This document shows positions 4,521-47,736 of a DNA stretch of 64,000 nucleotides, in pieces (within the stretch, counting starts at the first letter, position 1; the number at the start of each line of letters is the position of its first letter). The notes under the pieces are model-generated. The model saw only the letters and a list, made by a program, of their open reading frames with translations. It did not search any database and was not told the origin of the DNA. Source of the DNA: Leptodontidium sp. MPI-SDFR-AT-0119 (lineage: Eukaryota > Ascomycota > Leotiomycetes > Helotiales > Leptodontidiaceae); contig JAHLEZ010000002.1 of NCBI GenBank assembly GCA_020726505.1, forward strand, positions 1,550,001-1,614,000, written 5' to 3'. The position numbers and the translations under genes are program-made.

Positions 4521-5123
4521 TTTTGGAGATATATGGATATGATAACAGGTAAATAACAAAGATCTATAATTATCAAGTGAACCAAGAAAATGAAACAAAG
4601 AGTCAGCTTCTGTAATGACCCATGAAGATATTTAGTCTAGTCAAGAGGATTAAAAATCCCATTCCTCCAACTATGGGATAAAAAAAAGTTTTTGTCAGAA
4701 CGCCTCGGAATGACGAGTGATTTTAGTGGGCTTTAATACGGTAAACCCATTCGGGTAATTTGGGAGAAGCGGCATATGTTCCACCTGCCCACTCTCATAG
4801 GAATGCACCTGGAAGAAAGGCTTTGGAATCAGGAATGAGCTTTAGATAGTACTTAAATCTAGATCTACTTTGAGTTCTCATTAAGTAGAAGTGAAATAAG
4901 GATACTCTCTAAGTGTACTTAGGTAAGGCTGACATGGGTTTGGGAATTGTTTTTCCCCCTCGGATCCTTGACACAAAATCTTTTGGTGGGGTTGGCGGTC
5001 AGCGGCAGAATCGCTCAAAGCAGTTCACCGCTCAAATTATTCTCTCTTTACAAAAAGTTCGAGACTCAACTGCACCAAAGCCACCACTTCACGACAGGAA
5101 GGAATTGCCAACCAACCACCACG
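4521..5123. promoter_or_regulatory. Divergent promoter region, decarboxylase / NOP9
   Basis: 603 bp between two divergent start codons, so it must hold both promoters and 5' UTRs. I recognise no specific site. The frame of NOP9 is open upstream to 4947, but that leader is not like the family. Confidence 0.45.
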
Positions 5124-7562
5124 ATGCCCAAGGAAAACAAACACAGCAGAGGGCGGAGAGATGAGAAGAAACTGAAGCGCAAGAGGGAGAGAGGCGAAGA
5201 TGATACCCAAGGTCAGAACAAGAGGCAGAAATCGCAAGATCCGGCCGTCGAGGAGGATATAGACGTCCAATTCATTGGTACGGACAATGCTGCCGCTGCT
5301 CCTTCAATGGGAGATGGCTTCGCAGAGGGGCAGGGAGAAGGAGAAGGAGAAGGAGCTACAGAGCGCCCTTTTTACGGTATGCTAGAAGACCAGGAGCAAG
5401 AATACTTCCGCCGAGCAGACGAACTCCTCGAACAGAATGACTTTCCCTCCGAAGAAGAGCGCGCCCTATTCCTGGCGAACGTCTACCGCGAAGCCGAAGG
5501 CAAGGAGCTGAAGATTGCGTGCAGCCAGTCTTGTTCACGATTGATGGAGAGGCTGATCTTGCTGAGTACCGTGGAGCAGAAGAAGAAGCTGTTTGTGACT
5601 TTTGCGGGGAATTATCCGCATTTGATACAACATCGGTTTGCGAGCCATTGTTGCGAGACGCTTTTTATCCAGTCGGCGAATTTGGTTACGGAGGAGCTTA
5701 TTGCAGATTCGAAGGCCAAGAAGAAGAATGCTGGTGTAGGTGAGGATGAGGATGCTGATGTAGAGATGAAGGAGGAGGAATTACTTTCTATGGAAGATCT
5801 CTTCCTCCAAACTCTCGACGAGTTAGAAGGTCAAATGACATTTCTTCTCACCGACCGCTTCGCATCCCATACGCTCCGCGTCCTGCTAGTTATTCTGTCC
5901 GGTCGCGCGCTGGAGAAAGCGTCAACAAGAACCCTCATGCAAAGCAAGAAGAAAGAAAAGATCTCCATTACAGGTCTAGACACCACACCAACAGAACTCT
6001 CCCTCAACAAACGCGCCGTGCCCTCCTCCTTCCAATTCGCGATCGACAAGATCATCTCCGACACGATCGCCACAATGGACACAACATTCATACACATCCT
6101 AGCGACTCATCCAACTGGAAACCCAACCCTCCAACTCCTCCTCGAGCTCGAACTCACGAACCCCAATTCCAAGAAAGTCGTCAACGCCTCCAAGAAAACA
6201 ATCATCTCCGCTCTTCTCCCAGACGACATCACAGCCGAGAAGAGCGAATCCCAGACTTTCATCAACGGCATCCTCTACGACGCAATAGGTTCCCGGTTGC
6301 TAGAAACAATTGTCACATTCGCACCAGGAAAGCTCTTCAAGCAAATCTACCGCACCATCTTCAAAGACCGTATCGCCGCCGTAGCAAGAAACGAGATCTC
6401 TTCCTACGTAGCTATTAAAGTGTTTAACCGTCTGAGTAAAGAAGATCTCGAAGAGGCAGTCGAAGCCATCATTCCCCAAATCGAAGGCCTGGTCCAAAGA
6501 AACAGGACCGTGATCCTTAAGACCCTCCTCGAGAGATGTCACGCCAGAGGCGCTGATACAAAGGGTCTCGTGGACGCGATCGCTGCATCCTACGACCCTA
6601 AGACATCAAACGTCCTCCTCAAGATGTCCTGTATAGACGACATCGCCAACTTAATAACCAGCACTCAGCAAACCCCAGAAAGCGAATCCGCCCCAGCACA
6701 ACAAACCAAACCCAGCGCCTCCCAACTCCATGGCTCCCTCCTCGCACAATCGATGCTTTCGATTCCCGGCCCCCCAGCCCAATTAATTCAAGACTCACTA
6801 CTCTCACTCCCACCACAGATCCTCCTCGCCCTCTCAATCTACACAACAACATCCCACATAATCCAATCAGCCCTCCTCCCGACGGTATCAAACACCATTC
6901 CCTTCCGCCGGAAACTCATCAACGCCCTCCTATTCCCCCCCTCTTCGGACGAATCACCACCAGTCCTCACACTAGCCCTCTCCCCAACAGGCTCCCACGT
7001 CCTCGACGCCCTCCTCAGCAGCACCGCCTCCCCAACATCCCTCACATCAAACACCGCATCGGTCCCCCTCTTCTCCCTAACCGAACGCATCGCCTCCATC
7101 CTCCTCTCCCATGAGTCCCAACTCCGCGACAGCTGGACAGGACGCATCGTGCTGCGAAACTGGTCACTTGATCTCTTCAAGCGTCGACGTGGCGACTGGG
7201 TTAAGAAGATTAAAGAAGCTTCTCTTGAGAAGATGCGTGCTCTTCCTTCCACCACACTCACATCTACTGAGTTTCAGATCAATGGAGATGAAAATGAAAA
7301 TGGCAATGATGAAGATGGAAATGGAGAGACCAAGCAACCTAAAGTCTCAGCCCCAGGAATGGGCAAGAAGAACAGGAAGGATAGGAAGATGGCTAAGAAT
7401 GCTGCGAAAGCAGCAGCTCAAGGGCCGCAGAAGAGCGCGATCCAGCTTGCGAGAGAGAAGTTCGCGAAGGGGAAGTTGGAGAAGGGCGGTCATGGTGCTG
7501 GGAAGGGAGCACCTGGGAAGGATTACAGGACGGGTGCTAATGCTAAGCCTGTCAGTGCTTGA
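5124..7562 (+). CDS. NOP9: Nucleolar pre-rRNA-binding protein Nop9 (Pumilio-like)
   Basis: Nop9 is a nucleolar PUF-like repeat protein needed for 18S rRNA maturation in the 90S pre-ribosome. The single-exon gene encodes 812 aa. I start at the ATG at 5124 (MPKENKHSRGRRDEKKLKRK), which begins the typical basic head; the open frame extends upstream to 4947 but that stretch looks like 5' UTR. The recognisable family block is QEYFRRADELLEQNDFPSEE..LFLANVYREAEGKELKIA followed by CSRLMERLILLS, i.e. the first Pumilio repeat. More helical repeats follow through about residue 650, including FASHCCETLF, FASHTLRVLL, GSRLLETIV and ISSYVAIKVFNRL. The C-terminus is Lys-rich (GKKNRKDRKMAKNAAKAAAQ), normal for the family. 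Codons in the 5900-7200 part are strongly C-ending. Confidence 0.96.
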   Translation: MPKENKHSRGRRDEKKLKRKRERGEDDTQGQNKRQKSQDPAVEEDIDVQFIGTDNAAAAPSMGDGFAEGQGEGEGEGATERPFYGMLEDQEQEYFRRADELLEQNDFPSEEERALFLANVYREAEGKELKIACSQSCSRLMERLILLSTVEQKKKLFVTFAGNYPHLIQHRFASHCCETLFIQSANLVTEELIADSKAKKKNAGVGEDEDADVEMKEEELLSMEDLFLQTLDELEGQMTFLLTDRFASHTLRVLLVILSGRALEKASTRTLMQSKKKEKISITGLDTTPTELSLNKRAVPSSFQFAIDKIISDTIATMDTTFIHILATHPTGNPTLQLLLELELTNPNSKKVVNASKKTIISALLPDDITAEKSESQTFINGILYDAIGSRLLETIVTFAPGKLFKQIYRTIFKDRIAAVARNEISSYVAIKVFNRLSKEDLEEAVEAIIPQIEGLVQRNRTVILKTLLERCHARGADTKGLVDAIAASYDPKTSNVLLKMSCIDDIANLITSTQQTPESESAPAQQTKPSASQLHGSLLAQSMLSIPGPPAQLIQDSLLSLPPQILLALSIYTTTSHIIQSALLPTVSNTIPFRRKLINALLFPPSSDESPPVLTLALSPTGSHVLDALLSSTASPTSLTSNTASVPLFSLTERIASILLSHESQLRDSWTGRIVLRNWSLDLFKRRRGDWVKKIKEASLEKMRALPSTTLTSTEFQINGDENENGNDEDGNGETKQPKVSAPGMGKKNRKDRKMAKNAAKAAAQGPQKSAIQLAREKFAKGKLEKGGHGAGKGAPGKDYRTGANAKPVSA

Positions 7563-17750: not shown

Positions 17751-19440
17751 ATGCGTCTTCTCCTGTTTGCCGACCAGAGAAGGCCATCGAGAATCCACAC
17801 CTCCCCCATCCATACAGGTCTCGTACATGCAACAGAGAATGGCGCTCTCAGGTACAGTACATTGTATCCGCCGCTGAAGGACAGTGACATTCGCATTTTG
17901 ATTCTTCATCCTGGCCAGAGGGACGATATCATACGGTGTGACCTCATATCGTGTCCTCTCAAACCCGACCACAAACTGCCATACACAGCATTGTCACACA
18001 CATGGGGCTCTACGCATCCGAGCAAAAACATTCGAGTCAATGGATGTGCAGTTCGTATCCGCCAAAACCTCTGGTTAGCTTTGGGAGCACTACGAGGAGA
18101 TACACGAACAATTTGGGCGGATGTTTTATGCATCAACCAAAGCGAAATACTCGAACGGAACCGTCAAGTGGCACGAATGTGCGACATCTATAGGAACGCT
18201 TCTTGCGTTACGATTGGCTAGGAGAAGCAGGCGACGATAGCGACTTGGTGTTCGATTACCTGGCGACGCCCCATGCTTCAAGTTTGCTGAGAATTGCTAT
18301 GGGGAGTGAAGGACTGCCTGGAGAAAGAGAGGATTCTCCCGTTGGTTTGTCCAAGAGATTCAAGAAAGCACTATTAGCTTTGTGCGAACGTCCATACTGG
18401 AGAAGGGTATGGATCATTCAGGAGGTCCTTGCAACATCGCGCTTGGCAGTGCTATGTGGGTCGAGACGTATGGCACTTACTAATGTTCTTTGGACTCAAG
18501 ACACCCGACTCTATGGGGACATCTCCGGAATCGCGATCGTCATGCTGGGCAACTCCAGCATGGTCAATCATCTGTCACAGAGGAAATCTGGCGCACGATG
18601 ATGGCTATTCACTTTCGCAGTTAATTCTGACATGCTCGGATTGCAGCTCTCAATGCTGCGATACACGCGACAAAATATATGGCCTCTTGAGTCTATCCAA
18701 CAACAAATTTGACATCAAACCGGATTATTCTAAAGACACATTTGATATCTACATGGCCTTCATCAAGTTTCACATCTCACTCGATCACAGTGGTCGTTTT
18801 CGATTCGCAGATGATCCGCATCTACTGCGCACTGTTCAGTGACTTCTGGAAGACTCTATGTGGGACCAGAAAACGCGCAGCTTCTGCTCACTTCGGACTC
18901 TGAGGTCCAAAATGGAATCCAATGGGCTTTTGAACCTTTCAGGCACGGTATCTTTGCGAATCTGGGATACCGTGAAGGATATTGGACCTTTGATTTGCAT
19001 GCTGCCTAGTGAATGCGAAGTCGAGCTTCTGAGTGAACAAAGATTATTGCATGAGGATAGCAAATTTGTGGAAAACATTCCGGACACTTCGCCACTGTTC
19101 GACAATCTCCATGATGATCTATGTTATGCTATACTTGAAGACTCCCATCGCACACAGCCAATTGCCCCCTGTTGCAAGGGAGTTTCGGATAAAAGTCTCC
19201 CCATATCCACCGACTCGTTGCGAGATTGGACCTCTCATAGCTCGGAAGGTGTGTGTCGAGCTTATACGACATTCGGTGGTGGATCAGGGATTGCACCAAT
19301 GGTAGCCCAATGTGGGGATATGATCTGTTCGATTGGTGAATTGAAGACCGAAATGTTATTGTTCGTTCGGCGAGCGAAAGCAAAGACCTTAGAGTTGTTG
19401 GTCAAGGAATAATTGTTCGGGAGTCTGATCCCTCGAGCTC
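17751..19440 (+). pseudogene. HET-domain gene, broken by frameshifts
   Basis: HET proteins trigger cell death when genetically different hyphae fuse. The N-terminal half is clear: DSDIRILILHPGQRDD, YTALSHTWGS, IWADVLCINQSEILERN and RQVARMCDIYRNASCV are HET motifs 1 and 2. At about 18212 the frame runs into TAG, while one frame over it continues with WLGEAGDDSDLVFDYL and RPYWRRVWIIQEVLA, exactly as the family should; one missing T explains this. A second change near 18590 moves to DDGYSLSQLIL and CDTRDKIYGLLSLSN. Beyond 18840 the reading switches again (VGPENAQLLLTSDSEVQNG) and becomes hard to follow, though NVIVRSASESKDLRVVGQGI near 19370 resembles a HET C-terminus. With at least three shifts I call it a pseudogene. 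Confidence 0.8.
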
Positions 19441-28427: not shown

Positions 28428-30430
28428 TCAACGAAAAGCGAATAGGTTCAGTACCGTCGAACTTGCGGATCTAGAAGGCGGGATGTCGCGCAGTTGCATC
28501 CAAGCGGATGCTGCGCCAATGAAGTGGAAGTTCTCAACCTTCGCCTCTGAATTCGAAGACGCGAAACGAGAGCTGTCCAAGTGTCTGCTCTTGGTGAAGA
28601 ATGAAATGACTTTTGCGTCTAAGCCTTCTAACCCAGAATCATGGATATTAGGTAGGTTGCTGCTTGGCTGTGGGGGGTCGGACACCTTAATGTCCGTTGT
28701 CTTTCTTGCTACATAGGGACCATAGTTGTCGTCCAGCGTGCAGAGGATATCGCCGACTCGTGTGGAATGTGGAACTAGCGCTATGCCGCCATTATCAAGA
28801 AATGCCATTCGCTTTCCGGGAAAACAGCCAGGGCCGTGGAGATCGGTCATTCCAAGTATGAGATAGTTGATAACTTCCGAGTTGTAATATGTTGTATCTT
28901 GGTGTCGTCGATATGGTTCAACGACTGGGAGTGTTGTGTGCCCAGACTGAAGTTCGGGGTTCGATATAGCCTTGAGCCTCCCCAGGATGAATTCACCGGC
29001 TCGGTGGTGGGTTCTCGATGTTGGCATAAGTGGTAAATATTTGTTCTCGGATCCCATCCATTGTTGAAGATAGTAATACAAGTGGTTGTAGACTCTTAGT
29101 CCGATCGCTTCACTGACAGATGTCCCCTCCGGGAAACCGGACATGACTTGTTGAAGAAGTACTCTCAGATCGATCAAAGGTGGCATGTCGTCTCGGATGA
29201 ATTCGACCATGCCATCTATGGAGCCAGTGCACGCAAGTATTCCAGCATCCTGTAGAATTAGTAGAGCGTCACCTGTACCCTCGACCGTGGTGCTGCGGAT
29301 GCTTGTGGGCACAGATACATGCGGAGATGTCCAGTCTGGCACCCATGATGGTAGGTGTTTTCGACGCAACTCGAGAAGAACATCCTCCACATGGGATAAA
29401 ATGTCCAACCTGCTTCTTGAGTGCAGGAATGACACCGCCACGTCAACATAAACTTCCCGGATTGATTTGCCGTAGTTGACGTCAACAAACAGGTTCCTAT
29501 GACCTGTGCTATCTCGACGGCTTCCCAAGAGCCCGAGATGGGCATACACCATATCTCGCGGGTCCGTCACTCCTAGCGACCGCCTCGAGGAAAGAATCTT
29601 CAAAAGATACCCGCTCTTAACTGGTTCTTCATCCACACCCTGTGCATTTCCAAACTCCCAAGATGCTTCGATCGCTCTCGCCTCTGACATATCCACCAAG
29701 ACCTTGATCCTATGTTCCGGGATTCTTGGGTTTATAAGCATCCCAGCGAACAAATCCCATCGGACGCGCTTAAGCCCAACTTGGATCCAAGGATCTAGCG
29801 ATAAGACTAGTTCTTGCAATACCCACACGCGCGTGAACCAAGGCCGCTGCAGAATGGTCTGGTCAGCAAGTAGCCTAATATCTTCCGGCACATCGGGAAG
29901 CTTGCTCCGTTTATTTGCTCGCGAAGGCGTGTTATTCACTAGTGCCGAACGTTCGCTGCTGCAGGAAGTTGAATGTGCTGCCCTGCAAAGAACATCCATG
30001 ACCTGGTCTGAGGGAGGCGTACCCTCTCCCAAAAAGATAATAGTGTGGCGGGCGAGAGCAAAAATCCGTCCCATCTGCTTCACCTGTGTGTTCTTCTCAA
30101 TGAAATCGAATTGGTTGATGCATATACCGTCTGCCCAGACCAGTAATGCTGTTTTGGTGTCTCGAATGTGCTGCAAGGCCGAATGGAGGGACCTAGTTAT
30201 CGATAGTTGATGGCTACCGACATGGATACTCGCACAGACAGAAGATTCACCCCACGCATAGGAAGGGCGATATAGTAAGATGATATTGATAGATCGTATT
30301 CGACAAGGCTTGCGCTCTGGAGATCGCAGCGGACGGGGTCGTCGAGGTTAGCTGACGGGTGAAGCATGATTAGGCGGAAAGAATCAGGTCCGACGAGTGG
30401 AACATACTGGTATGTTTCCAGGAACTCCAT
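28428..30430 (-). pseudogene. HET-domain protein gene with a single frameshift
   Basis: Start ATG 30430 (MEFLETYQYVPL), then FRLIMLHPSANLDDPVRCDL and YYIAL. At about 30262-30268 the frame must move by one base to give SYAWGESSVCASIHVGSHQLS and QHIRDTKTALLVWADGICIN, the conserved HET motif. One missing T (GCCCTT|CC) explains it. Beyond that the frame is open for more than 580 codons with all landmarks: FIEKNTQVKQMGRIF, RPWFTRVWVLQELVLS, VTDPRDMVYAHLGLLG, VDVNYGKSIREVYVDVA, LPSWVPDWT, and the C-terminal GGIALVPHSTRVGDILCTLD. So this copy is whole apart from one base. It is either a young null allele or an assembly error, and a functional gene in the organism is quite possible. Confidence 0.85.
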
Positions 30431-41404: not shown

Positions 41405-42997
41405 CTTAAAAGTGAAGATACGCAAGTCCTGGTAGGGGACTTTGAATCGGAAGTACTGTAGCAAGGCTGGATTTGGAGTTCAGAGAATGGAGGTCGACAT
41501 GTTTGGGACTTTAGGGGATGCTTCTTATATTTTGATACCCGAGTGGGCGGATGAAATCAATAACTTTGGCATACAACCCCATGTCTAGTAAAGACACCCA
41601 CCATCATTAAACCATGTTTCCATCTGTATCTGGTTAGCTGAAGTCTACTTCAAGTATCAGCCTCAATGCTCTTACTAGTAAGCAGTCTGCATTAGCGCCG
41701 ATTCGACAACTTGGCTACAACGAGAGTGTCTTCCTGAAAGGTGCCAAGTAAAGGTAAAATTCTGTGAACAAGCACAGGATCCCGGACTCTTCCTCCTCTA
41801 TATCTTAATATTACCGATCAAATATGCTAAAAAGTTATATTTCAGAAAGGCGGATCGGCATCTCGAGATGAAAACGAAATCCCAAGGCAACTCCTCCTTC
41901 CCAGCCTTCCTAGACAAACTCACTTCATGGTCCCTGGTCACCAATATCAAGTTGCGGTGTCCATGGGATCTGAAAGTCCTCAAGAAATTGGGTCGCAATC
42001 AAAAATGATTCGCCTTTATTTGGCTCTAGTTCACGAGCATAATAACTTTTGCTCTGAGGATCGCTTCTAGCGAATGTGAGGTAGGTACAATTGCTCAGCT
42101 TCATGGCCTGCACGGCCAGTAATTATTGTCCCTTCTTTCCTGCTTTCTTTAGTCGGATTTATCTTTTGGATGAGAGTTAATGAAAATGCCAGGAGATTAT
42201 CACATGACGTCGAGGCTAGCCAACTTCGTCACCGGTGAAGCGATAACTCTTCAGGTAGGTAGGTAGCCTTCGCTCCCTGAATAAAAGTCCGTTCAAAGTC
42301 GCTAAATCATTTCAGAACATTGACTTCAAGGAAAAGCCGAGCTCGGGTTTAAGCAAGCCTTAGTTTTGATCTTTAAGTGAATTGTATAAGTAGGAAAGCA
42401 ATTCGCTTCATGGAGACGAATTTGGCGAGCCTCGCGTAAATGTGATCCACTGGGCCTAGGTAATGTGCCGCTGCTGCACAAACGTGCTAGCAACGCAACG
42501 AGGATTTAAAACTTCGTGTGAGATCGATGAATGCCGATCGGAACTTCATATTCGCAAGAGTCCTTCTTGGATCTCGAAGAATTGCCTCTGGCCGGATCCG
42601 AGGGGTCAATGGAGTGGGGCAGCTGTTGGAGCTTGAAAGTACTTACGTCCTCATCCAAGTAGACTTGGAGCAGGTTGTCAGTGTGATGTATCTAAAAGGC
42701 TTCTACTTCTTTACATAGATAGTGGGATGTTAATACTACTTGGAAACTCTGTATTATAGATTCATTCGTTGCTTGACCTTTTGTTGCGGTTTAAGAACCG
42801 AGCCCCATTACAATGGAAGTTCGTCTTAACGCCGAGTACTATATAAAGTAGGAGTCCTATGAAATCGTAAGGCTTGGAAAGCATGATTGAGATCGTTGTG
42901 TTCCGTGATGCAGCGCAGCGTCTTCGTTGAGGTGTCAAAAATTTATTTCTGTAATGTAACCAAATAAGAGGAAACCCCACATCAAGCATAACAACAT
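41405..42997. other. Intergenic region
   Basis: 1.6 kb without a supportable gene; several short chance open frames. It leads up to the tRNA-Ser gene. Confidence 0.45.
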
Positions 42998-43034
42998 GGC
43001 ACTTTGGCGGAGTGGTTAACGCGATGGCCTGCTA

Positions 43035-43054
43035 TTTGAAAGAAGAGCAAAGAC
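43035..43054 (+). other. Canonical tRNA intron (position 37/38)
   Basis: 20-nt intron at the standard eukaryotic place in the anticodon loop; includes AGC able to pair with anticodon GCT. Removed by tRNA splicing endonuclease by family knowledge. Confidence 0.85.
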
Positions 43055-43075
43055 AGCCATTTCCTTCGGGAGCGA

Positions 43076-43132
43076 GTGAGTCTTTAACTCCAGCTCAAAA
43101 ACAGGAGGAGTAAATTACTAACAGCACTCCAG
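43076..43132 (+). other. Spliceosomal-type intron inside the tRNA T arm
   Basis: 57 nt with donor GTGAGT, branch motif TACTAAC (43116-43122), and acceptor CCAG 11 nt after the branch A. Exact GT-AG removal leaves GA+GTG, TTCGAAT, CACTC, a perfect T arm. No bulge-helix-bulge fold is obvious. See finding. Confidence 0.75.
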
Positions 43133-43164
43133 GTGTTCGAATCACTCAGGTGTCGGCAAGATCA

Positions 43165-43174
43165 TTTTTTTTTT
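43165..43174 (+). terminator. RNA polymerase III terminator of tRNA-Ser
   Basis: Run of ten T starting 10 nt after the tRNA 3' end. Confidence 0.85.
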
Positions 43175-45625: not shown

Positions 45626-47736
45626 ATGATGAGGACGTGGCGACGCTCGTATCCTCGCCTGACCCATCTCTTCCCACATGAAATTGGTGTAGGAGGAAGA
45701 GCCAGAGCCTTGGCGCTCACGAGCTGGACACCCGTGATCCGGACAAAATCTGCGAGGCCATTTCACAACGGGACATACTCTCCACCCAAATCCAATACTT
45801 GGAGACCGGTGATTCCACAGTCTTCAAGTCACTTCAAATACAGGCCCCTCACGGGCTCGTCGGCCATCCGTCTCGTCATCCTAGAACCAGTCCGAGGAGA
45901 GGATCCTGTCAGATGCCGCCTCATCCACGTCTCCCTCGACGACAATCCACAGTATGAATCTTTATCATACGCATGGGGAGATTCATCTGTCACTACACCA
46001 ATATATATCGATGGCAAAGCAATCCCGGTTACTGAAAACCTCGAATCGGCTCTCGTGAATCTCCGAGATGAGAGTCTTGAGAATCCAAAGGACAGAGTTC
46101 TGTGGGTCGATGCCATATGTATTAATCAAATGCATATTCCGGAGAGGAACGATCAGTTCCAATAAATGAGAGACATATATGGGAATGCCGCAATGGTTCT
46201 CATCTAGATTGGCCGCTATCATGAAACTGTGGACACTTCTATTCGCGATATCGAGACGTGGGGCTTCCATACTTTGGAAGAAGGCACGAGGGAACAGACT
46301 AAGAAAACCTTTGAATTCATGACAGATATCTTCAAATTGTCATGCAAAGACGAATATGAAATGCAGCTCCTGATAGCATCTGCAACGAAACACGACTGGG
46401 TACACCTCGAGCGCTTGCTAAACAGACCGTGATCCGAACGCCTCTGGGTTGTTCAAGAGGTATACCTGGCCCGAAGGACCCGACTCATCTGTGGTCGCGT
46501 CGAATGTGAATGAACTGAGCTCTCTCACGCATGCCAATTTCTCAGCCTATCAGCATTGGCATCGTCCACAGCTTCACCATCTGCCGTCAACTTTGTACTC
46601 TTAGCCTTGGTTTCTTACGGCAACCCACGCATCCATGCTAAGCTTTCCCAAGTACCGAAGCAAGCGATCATCCTTTTGCTTCGCAACCTTTCGCATTTTG
46701 CTTGCACGGATCCGCGTGACCGTCTATACGCAATTCTGGGAATCTGTTGCGACGGAGAAGGCATTAATGTTGACTATAGCAAGTCCGTTCAACAGGTGTA
46801 CGCTGATTTGGTATGGTCGTATATTGCAGAGACATCTGGATTGGAGATATTCAGCCTTGTAAACTATACACTCTCCTCAGCTTCCGGACTGCCTTCTTGG
46901 GTGCCAAACCACCAACCTGGCCAGCAAACAGACCTCGACGTAGTCCCGCTCTTGTATCGGTCAGCATTGGCTAAGGGCCCGTCAGGGGAGTCTGAAGAGC
47001 CGTCAGTTTATTCTTCCTCTGGAGGTAGTCTCAGCGATGCGTCATTATCAAAAGACAGACTTTTTTTTAGCACTATCAGGGACAGCGGCCGGGAGAATAG
47101 CTGGTATATTCGATGTCCATGAAATCGATGAACTCGAAACGGAAGAGGCTCTGGGATCGGCGGATCCCAGGATCCCACGCCTTCACTTGACTACCTGGCG
47201 GGTTTAAGAATCTTCAAGATCAGTGACTTGGAAGCGAATGTGGCACAACACTTTGGATTTCCAAAGTTGGCTTATGCCTCCCCTCTTTGGTATGAGTTTA
47301 CAGATGTACTTTTTCGAGGGCTCGAGCAGACTTTAACGCTGAAAGTGTTCCGTGGGATCGATGACTTGCACTATCGATATGCAGTTCTGCGCGGATTTGA
47401 ACCGATCCCTTTCGATTCAAACCAGATCTTGACGAAAAGACCCGACGAAGAGATTATTTGGTCACCCTAAAACTGGCCGTGAATATGATCGCTCGTCAAA
47501 TACGAATGTTCGTGACGGCTGAAGGCAGGCTGGGATTGGCTATGTTAAGCTCAAACGTGCAAATTGGCGACGAAGTCTATGTTCTAATTGGAGGAAATAC
47601 GCCGTACGTCCTGAGGAAAGACGAAGAAAGTCATCACCTGATAACACCGTGCTATCTCTATGGTTTCATGAATGGAGAAGCAATGAATGGGTTGGAGGTG
47701 GGGAAGTACAAGTTGGAGAAAGTCACTCTCGTGTGA
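45626..47736 (+). pseudogene. HET-domain gene inactivated by nonsense codons
   Basis: Full-length HET relic. Motifs in order: IRLVILEPVRGEDPVRCRLI, YESLSYAWGDSSVTTPIYID, LWVDAICINQMHIPERNDQF, MRDIYGNAAMVLI, ERLWVVQEVYLARRTRLICG, CTDPRDRLYAILGICCDGEG, VDYSKSVQQVYADLVW, LPSWVPNHQ. The C-terminal FVTAEGRLGLAM, GDEVYVLIGG and YGFMNGEAM are also typical. The first 490 codons stay in one frame but carry stops TAA 46163, TAG 46205, TGA 46430 and TGA 46511. They sit where the family has Gln, Trp (VWIG), Trp (PW.ERLWVVQE) and an unconserved codon. All are explained by C-to-T on one strand or the other. Two more stops near 47120-47131 and a frame change near 47460 add damage. Confidence 0.88.

Follow-up and report, generated by a model that had tools for sequence, protein, structure and literature searches.

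The window analysed here, a 64,000-nucleotide stretch of the genome of Leptodontidium sp. MPI-SDFR-AT-0119, a helotialean ascomycete, carries on its forward strand a tRNA-Ser(GCT) gene that we checked base by base and that extends from 42998 to 43155, up to the discriminator G73. Exon 1 (42998 to 43034) runs from the 5′ strand of the acceptor to position 37, including the A-box region and the GCT anticodon, and is separated from exon 2 (43055 to 43075; the 3′ strand of the anticodon stem, the variable arm, and bases 1 and 2 of the T stem) by an ordinary anticodon-loop intron of 20 nt, located by ARAGORN at 43035 to 43054. A spliceosomal-type intron of 57 nt follows at 43076 to 43132, placed by paralogue comparison at tRNA positions 50/51 in the T stem. 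It begins with the 5′ splice site GTGAGT (43076 to 43081), contains the branch motif TACTAAC (43116 to 43122), with the branch A 11 nt from the intron 3′ end, and terminates in CCAG, the 3′ splice site CAG occupying 43130 to 43132. Exon 3 (43133 to 43155) supplies the remainder of the T arm, in which the B box is unbroken, together with the 3′ strand of the acceptor and the discriminator. Ten T residues at 43165 to 43174 form the Pol III terminator, and an AAATAAG box, a probable Pol III upstream element, is situated 36 nt 5′ of the gene (42962 to 42968). As read from the sequence, the gene has A and B boxes and a T-run terminator and is free of internal T runs. A preliminary description had reported the gene, the 20-nt anticodon intron, the 57-nt insert, the TACTAAC motif, and the T10 run, and all of its coordinates were exact. 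Both serine codons concerned are in use, as one ORF of 862 codons contains AGC 15 times and AGT 4 times.

Other features were observed in the window. The protein encoded at 4977 to 7562, named Nucleolar protein 9 by several sources, showed 100% identity over 94% of the query to a protein of Leptodontidium sp. 2 PMI_412 and 91 to 81% identity to those of Cadophora, Rhexocercosporidium, Oculimacula, and Rhynchosporium. ORFs with the Pfam HET domain PF06985 were found at 17751 to 18221, 28428 to 30176, and 45626 to 46165.

Neither ARAGORN nor Rfam at gathering cut-offs identified any tRNA in the raw window. After deletion of 43076 to 43132, ARAGORN called a tRNA-Ser(gct) with the 20-nt anticodon intron, and the spliced copy, which has a long variable arm and G73, was paired throughout (acceptor, D, anticodon, variable, and T stems, 7/7, 3/3, 5/5, 3/3, and 5/5; 23/23 in total), in agreement with the earlier claim that GT-AG removal restores the T arm. 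ARAGORN is tolerant, as a 57-nt deletion gave Ser(gct) at 21 of 103 offsets; this program alone therefore cannot set the edges of the insert, and they rest on the paralogue L029. That gene is unbroken at 50/51, and once spliced it is identical to the window copy letter by letter in its exons, the anticodon intron excepted. Against L029, the gap in the window gene can be placed in four registers, exactly one of which yields GT-AG.

We found four tRNA-Ser(GCT) genes in the genome, and all four are interrupted. By hand numbering, L029 (C4) has introns at 7/8 and 42/43 plus an anticodon intron, L111 (C26) has introns at 15/16 and 28/29 and lacks the anticodon intron, and L150 (C45) has introns at 7/8 and 28/29 plus an anticodon intron. 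Together, the four genes hold seven spliceosomal-type introns distributed over five sites; of the two in L150, one falls at a site also used in L029 and the other at a site used in L111, and 50/51 is unique to the window gene, none of the three further copies being interrupted there. Each of the four, once spliced, pairs at 23/23 stem positions with the same distribution over the five stems, and the differences among them are compensated (e.g., in the anticodon stem, ATGGC/GCCAT, ACAGC/GCTGT, and ATTCC/GGAAT). L150 has T as discriminator and an unusual D loop. A genome search with the spliced Ser(GCT) sequence as query returned no contiguous Ser(GCT) copy, only exon pieces, and the same search detected intact Ser(AGA) genes at an E value of 2.6e-34. 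This search overlooked the interrupted L150, which was recovered with a variable-arm pattern; at up to three mismatches, the pattern matched the four interrupted Ser(GCT) genes and nothing else. An intact tRNA-Ser(GCT) gene elsewhere, set beforehand as the observation that would speak for a dead copy in the window, did not emerge from our searches, which recovered three further copies, each of them interrupted as well.

The genome searched comprises 76,969,438 bases in 69 contigs. By reading individual loci, we modelled 22 interrupted tRNA genes with 31 introns, 13 of the genes having one intron and 9 having two, so that the single case described before became a genome-wide feature: 30 more introns of like design in 21 other tRNA genes, which places the window intron beyond chance. 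The interrupted genes comprised four Ser-GCT, Ser-AGA, Leu-CAA, Leu-AAG (L137, assigned by ARAGORN and by its loop), a gene read as Leu-TAA (L108), L035 (a Leu body with a CGG anticodon), two Arg-TCG, Arg-CCT, two Ile-AAT, Glu-TTC, two Glu-CTC, two His, two Pro-AGG, and one Ala-CGC-like gene. About 19 intron sites in the cloverleaf were counted by hand, from 6/7 in the acceptor to 69/70. Another 56 tRNA genes were listed without such introns. These numbers describe a sample, whose composition depends on the search methods, and not a census, from a genome that may be incomplete: 63 of 2,877 candidates of the tRNA family search were scored, and one site search gave 47 sites versus 45 in a backward control. 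Of the 47, 21 were examined (19 read individually and 2 covered by L122 and L124), yielding 11 tRNAs, 5 of them interrupted.

Leu-TAA, Pro-AGG, and Ala-CGC were not encountered as intron-free genes in this incomplete survey, and Phe, Tyr, Asn, Asp, Cys, Lys-TTT, Thr-AGT, Ala-AGC, and Val-AAC were not represented among the matches listed. Any of these nine may be absent or may have been overlooked, and the Phe, Tyr, Asn, Asp, Cys, and Lys-TTT genes may also be concealed by introns. BLAST with generic fungal tRNAs as query gave zero candidates, and the pattern TAGCTCAGTYGGTWAGAGC, used for Phe/Tyr/Lys/Asn, matched only the four Ile genes and one unrelated site. L035 (G000:C3:817094 region) contains two introns in a Leu-like body close to that of the Leu-CAA gene L037, has a CGG (Pro) anticodon, and shows one acceptor mismatch by eye; at least L035 and L150 may be dying copies. 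An uninterrupted 5S rRNA gene shares the 3-kb locus of L035. A degenerate Leu-AAG gene (L138) was left out of the counts, as were L095, L103, L104, L062, L097, L098, L100, L130/L131, and others, in which no sound tRNA was seen. Among these, L103 and L104 (G000:C11:590772 and C33:31739) are Gly-GCC-like, with a 5′ end unlike other Gly-GCC acceptors and an unchanged 3′ part, and L130 and L131 (G000:C46:110879 and 111652) are near-identical tRNA-like units about 770 bases apart. A tRNA A-box pattern also picked up a repeated element that is not a tRNA; it contains TTAGTGTAGAGGTTTCCAC, has similar flanks, and is present on five contigs (L125, L127, L128, L129, and L135).

All 31 introns have GT-AG ends and lengths of 49 to 79 nt, and their 3′ ends are CAG (16), TAG (8), or AAG (7). 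The branch motif CTRAY (NCTRAY) is present in 30 of them, with the A 9 to 14 nt from the 3′ end; the one intron without it, Ser-GCT-3 intron 1, counts against the explanation that we favour. The weak 5′ site GTTTGA of the second Ser-AGA intron likewise counts against it and makes this intron one of the least certain models, although its removal restores the end present in L041 and L044. An uninterrupted relative in the same genome reveals the junction of 18 of the 31 introns, with one to four registers each and a single GT-AG among them. The junction script counted 22, and four were dropped as based on 12-mers only: L108 and two Pro genes, whose 12-mers lie outside the tRNA of L069 and L122, and L140, whose 12-mer lies in T arms (e.g., that of L061). 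The 18th junction includes the 12-nt Ser-AGA end, matched in L041 and L044.

As a comparison set, 310 kb of this genome yielded 25 predicted coding introns. The median length was 54 nt in the tRNA and the coding introns alike, and the two sets also resemble each other in GT-AG ends and branch motif; the coding set is small, uncurated, and picked by the same splice motifs together with open frames, so that this likeness is no independent proof. The two classes differ in base runs: TTTT occurred in none of the 31 tRNA introns versus 7 of the 25 coding introns (Fisher P = 0.002). Shuffling predicted 6.6 TTTT-containing tRNA introns, and zero was reached in 0.1% of shuffles. AAAA was not avoided, occurring in 12 of the 31 tRNA introns versus 2 of the 25 coding introns. 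The absence of TTTT is as expected if the tRNA introns are transcribed by Pol III.

Unspliced, the interrupted genes largely escaped the tRNA finders. ARAGORN gave no tRNA for 17 of the 22, the wrong type for 3, and the right type for 2 (L060 and L154), and upon splicing a tRNA was called in 22/22, compared with 5/22 before; spliced L108 (read as Leu-TAA) was labelled "Stop" and spliced L011 (read as Arg-TCG) "???". The Infernal tRNA model at the Rfam cut-off detected 4 of the 22 unspliced genes (L009, L011, L059, and L060) and 6/6 intron-free control genes. Given this 4/22, essential tRNAs would be overlooked when such genomes are annotated.

Some introns also interrupt the internal promoter. 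The B box is split in L035, L037, L137, and L140, and the A-box region is split in, e.g., L143, L144, L111, L154, and L160; the split boxes pose a difficulty for TFIIIC binding and count against the favoured explanation. An AAATAAG-type box was found 5′ of exon 1 in 20 of the 22 interrupted genes, at 23 to 67 nt (median, 36), and a similar box in 44 of the 56 uninterrupted genes (median, 42), or 64 of 78 overall, mostly at 25 to 60 nt, these counts being without a shuffled control and the L150 search covering only 30 nt of upstream sequence. The box is likely a Pol III upstream element, and its position near most genes with an exon 1 of 6 to 12 nt supports the placement of exon 1. A U6 family search yielded two loci. 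L149 (G000:C13:138532-138689 and the preceding 75 nt) is a U6 gene with two GT-AG introns, one beginning with GTATGT or GTGTAT and the other having GTAAGT and ACTAAC; L148 (C13:117239-117337) is U6-like and unbroken but divergent, especially in its 5′ part.

Short spliceosomal introns of this kind have parallels outside protein-coding genes. mRNA-type spliceosomal introns occur in fungal rRNA genes, where an mRNA-type intron likewise lies inside a noncoding RNA gene; the host there is a Pol I ribosomal RNA and here a tRNA. A 1993 report on deuteromycete 18S rDNA appears in the reference list of PMC11782384. According to PMC5832005, frequent interruption is known for only two small structured RNAs, U3 and U6, and U6 introns occur in fungi; with L149, this accepted precedent is present in the genome studied here. 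Like the mRNA-type introns of fungal U6 snRNA and U3 snoRNA, the introns described here are short, of spliceosomal type, and located in a gene for a Pol III or small structured RNA. They differ in that the host is a tRNA, that at least 22 genes are affected at about 19 sites, and that an anticodon-loop intron is often present as well. According to PMC8450103, a eukaryotic tRNA gene has no more than one intron. The canonical nuclear tRNA intron at 37/38, a substrate of the tRNA splicing endonuclease, is also present in the window gene (43035 to 43054), whereas the T-stem insert at 50/51 carries spliceosomal signals and lacks a bulge-helix-bulge. Spliceosomal introns in tRNA genes were not reported anywhere in the literature searched, which excluded most subscription papers and all bioRxiv preprints, in line with the earlier statement that such an intron appeared to be undescribed; the term "spliceosom" was likewise absent from PMC4090602.

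According to the same review (PMC4090602), noncanonical introns are rare in eukaryotes, with nucleomorphs and Cyanidioschyzon merolae named, and archaea, C. merolae, and nucleomorphs have introns in the D arm, T arm, variable region, and acceptor, with several per gene. Noncanonical positions and multiple introns are thus shared with those systems and would fit removal of the inserts by the tRNA splicing endonuclease at a bulge-helix-bulge, defined here as two 3-nt bulges flanking a 4-bp helix at the junctions. The introns of those systems have a bulge-helix-bulge or measure 3 to 24 nt, unlike the 49- to 79-nt introns with GT, CTRAY, and AG seen here. In a simple position-fixed test, the 4-bp central helix was complete in 1 of the 31 introns and all three helices in none, and junction pairing (49 pairs) was no better than when introns were swapped between genes (49.7 pairs; P = 0.60). 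Endonuclease cleavage would also leave the constant GT, CTRAY, and AG signals unexplained, and we regard it as hardly credible. Group I or II introns were rejected because 49 to 79 nt is too short for them.

The interrupted genes could instead be pseudogenes, with intact copies elsewhere doing the work. For Ile-AAT, His, Ser-AGA, Leu-AAG, Leu-CAA, Arg-TCG, Arg-CCT, and Glu, intact genes are indeed present; L138 is a degenerate Leu-AAG gene with a remnant intron; some decay is visible in L035 and L150; and, according to the review, insertions in the D or T arm of eukaryotic tRNA genes mostly mark pseudogenes (PMC4090602). This does not fit Ser(GCT), for which neither the spliced query nor the variable-arm pattern revealed an intact gene and whose stems are intact and compensated, nor the avoidance of TTTT in the introns, and general pseudogene status is very unlikely. 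Just as improbable in our judgement is a recent wave of mobile introns that are tolerated in tRNA genes and not established. Introner elements place many introns at many sites in one genome, and the present set resembles them in this respect, with many sites, up to two introns per gene, and paralogues with and without introns. A repeated family, as expected of introners, was not evident: 13 of the 31 introns were searched against the whole genome and matched only themselves, and among 22 tRNA and 2 U6 introns compared, full-length likeness was confined to the Arg pair L009/L011; the introns of L035 and L037 are alike at their ends. Of the two possibilities raised in the preliminary description, a spliceosome acting on a tRNA precursor or recent insertion of an mRNA intron, the former is favoured, since the 13 of 31 introns searched are single-copy, the introns compared are mostly dissimilar, and none of the 31 contains TTTT. 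The introner explanation concerns origin and is compatible with spliceosomal removal.

The features that can be read directly are the anatomy of the gene, the splice signals, the exon edges set by the paralogue, the recurrence of this design across 22 tRNA genes and U6, and the lack of an intact tRNA-Ser(GCT) gene among the search results. On this basis, a spliceosomal-type intron in the T arm of a nuclear tRNA-Ser(GCT), as first proposed, is supported as the best reading: with a probability of about 0.9, the window gene would be a working nuclear tRNA-Ser(GCT) from which an endonuclease-type anticodon intron and a T-stem GT-AG intron are removed, the latter by the major spliceosome. Pol III would transcribe the whole precursor and terminate at the T run, and the T-stem intron would be excised by the spliceosome like a short fungal mRNA intron. 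Only afterwards would the cloverleaf fold, the ends be trimmed, and the anticodon intron be lost. The window intron, like many of the others, disrupts a stem or the T loop, so that splicing should precede folding, end trimming, and probably removal of the anticodon intron. Decoding of AGC and AGU, and hence growth, would then rely on spliceosomal removal.

We consider it likely that the spliceosome is an obligatory tRNA-maturation enzyme in this fungal lineage, with AGC/AGU decoded only via spliced Pol III pre-tRNAs, several such precursors having a split A or B box, translation tied to splicing, and introns spread through Pol III genes, including U6. UUA, CCY, and GCG decoding may be included, since no intron-free Leu-TAA, Pro-AGG, or Ala-CGC was seen. 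The spliceosome is a known machine, and it is the tRNA as a substrate class that appears to be new. If this is true, tRNA would become a further class of RNA that the spliceosome matures, the rule confining nuclear tRNA introns of eukaryotes to 37/38 and to one endonuclease would be broken, and the spliceosome would act efficiently on Pol III transcripts beyond U6 and U3. It would also open to test how the spliceosome is loaded on a Pol III transcript, how TFIIIC deals with a split box, and how introns invade a gene class.
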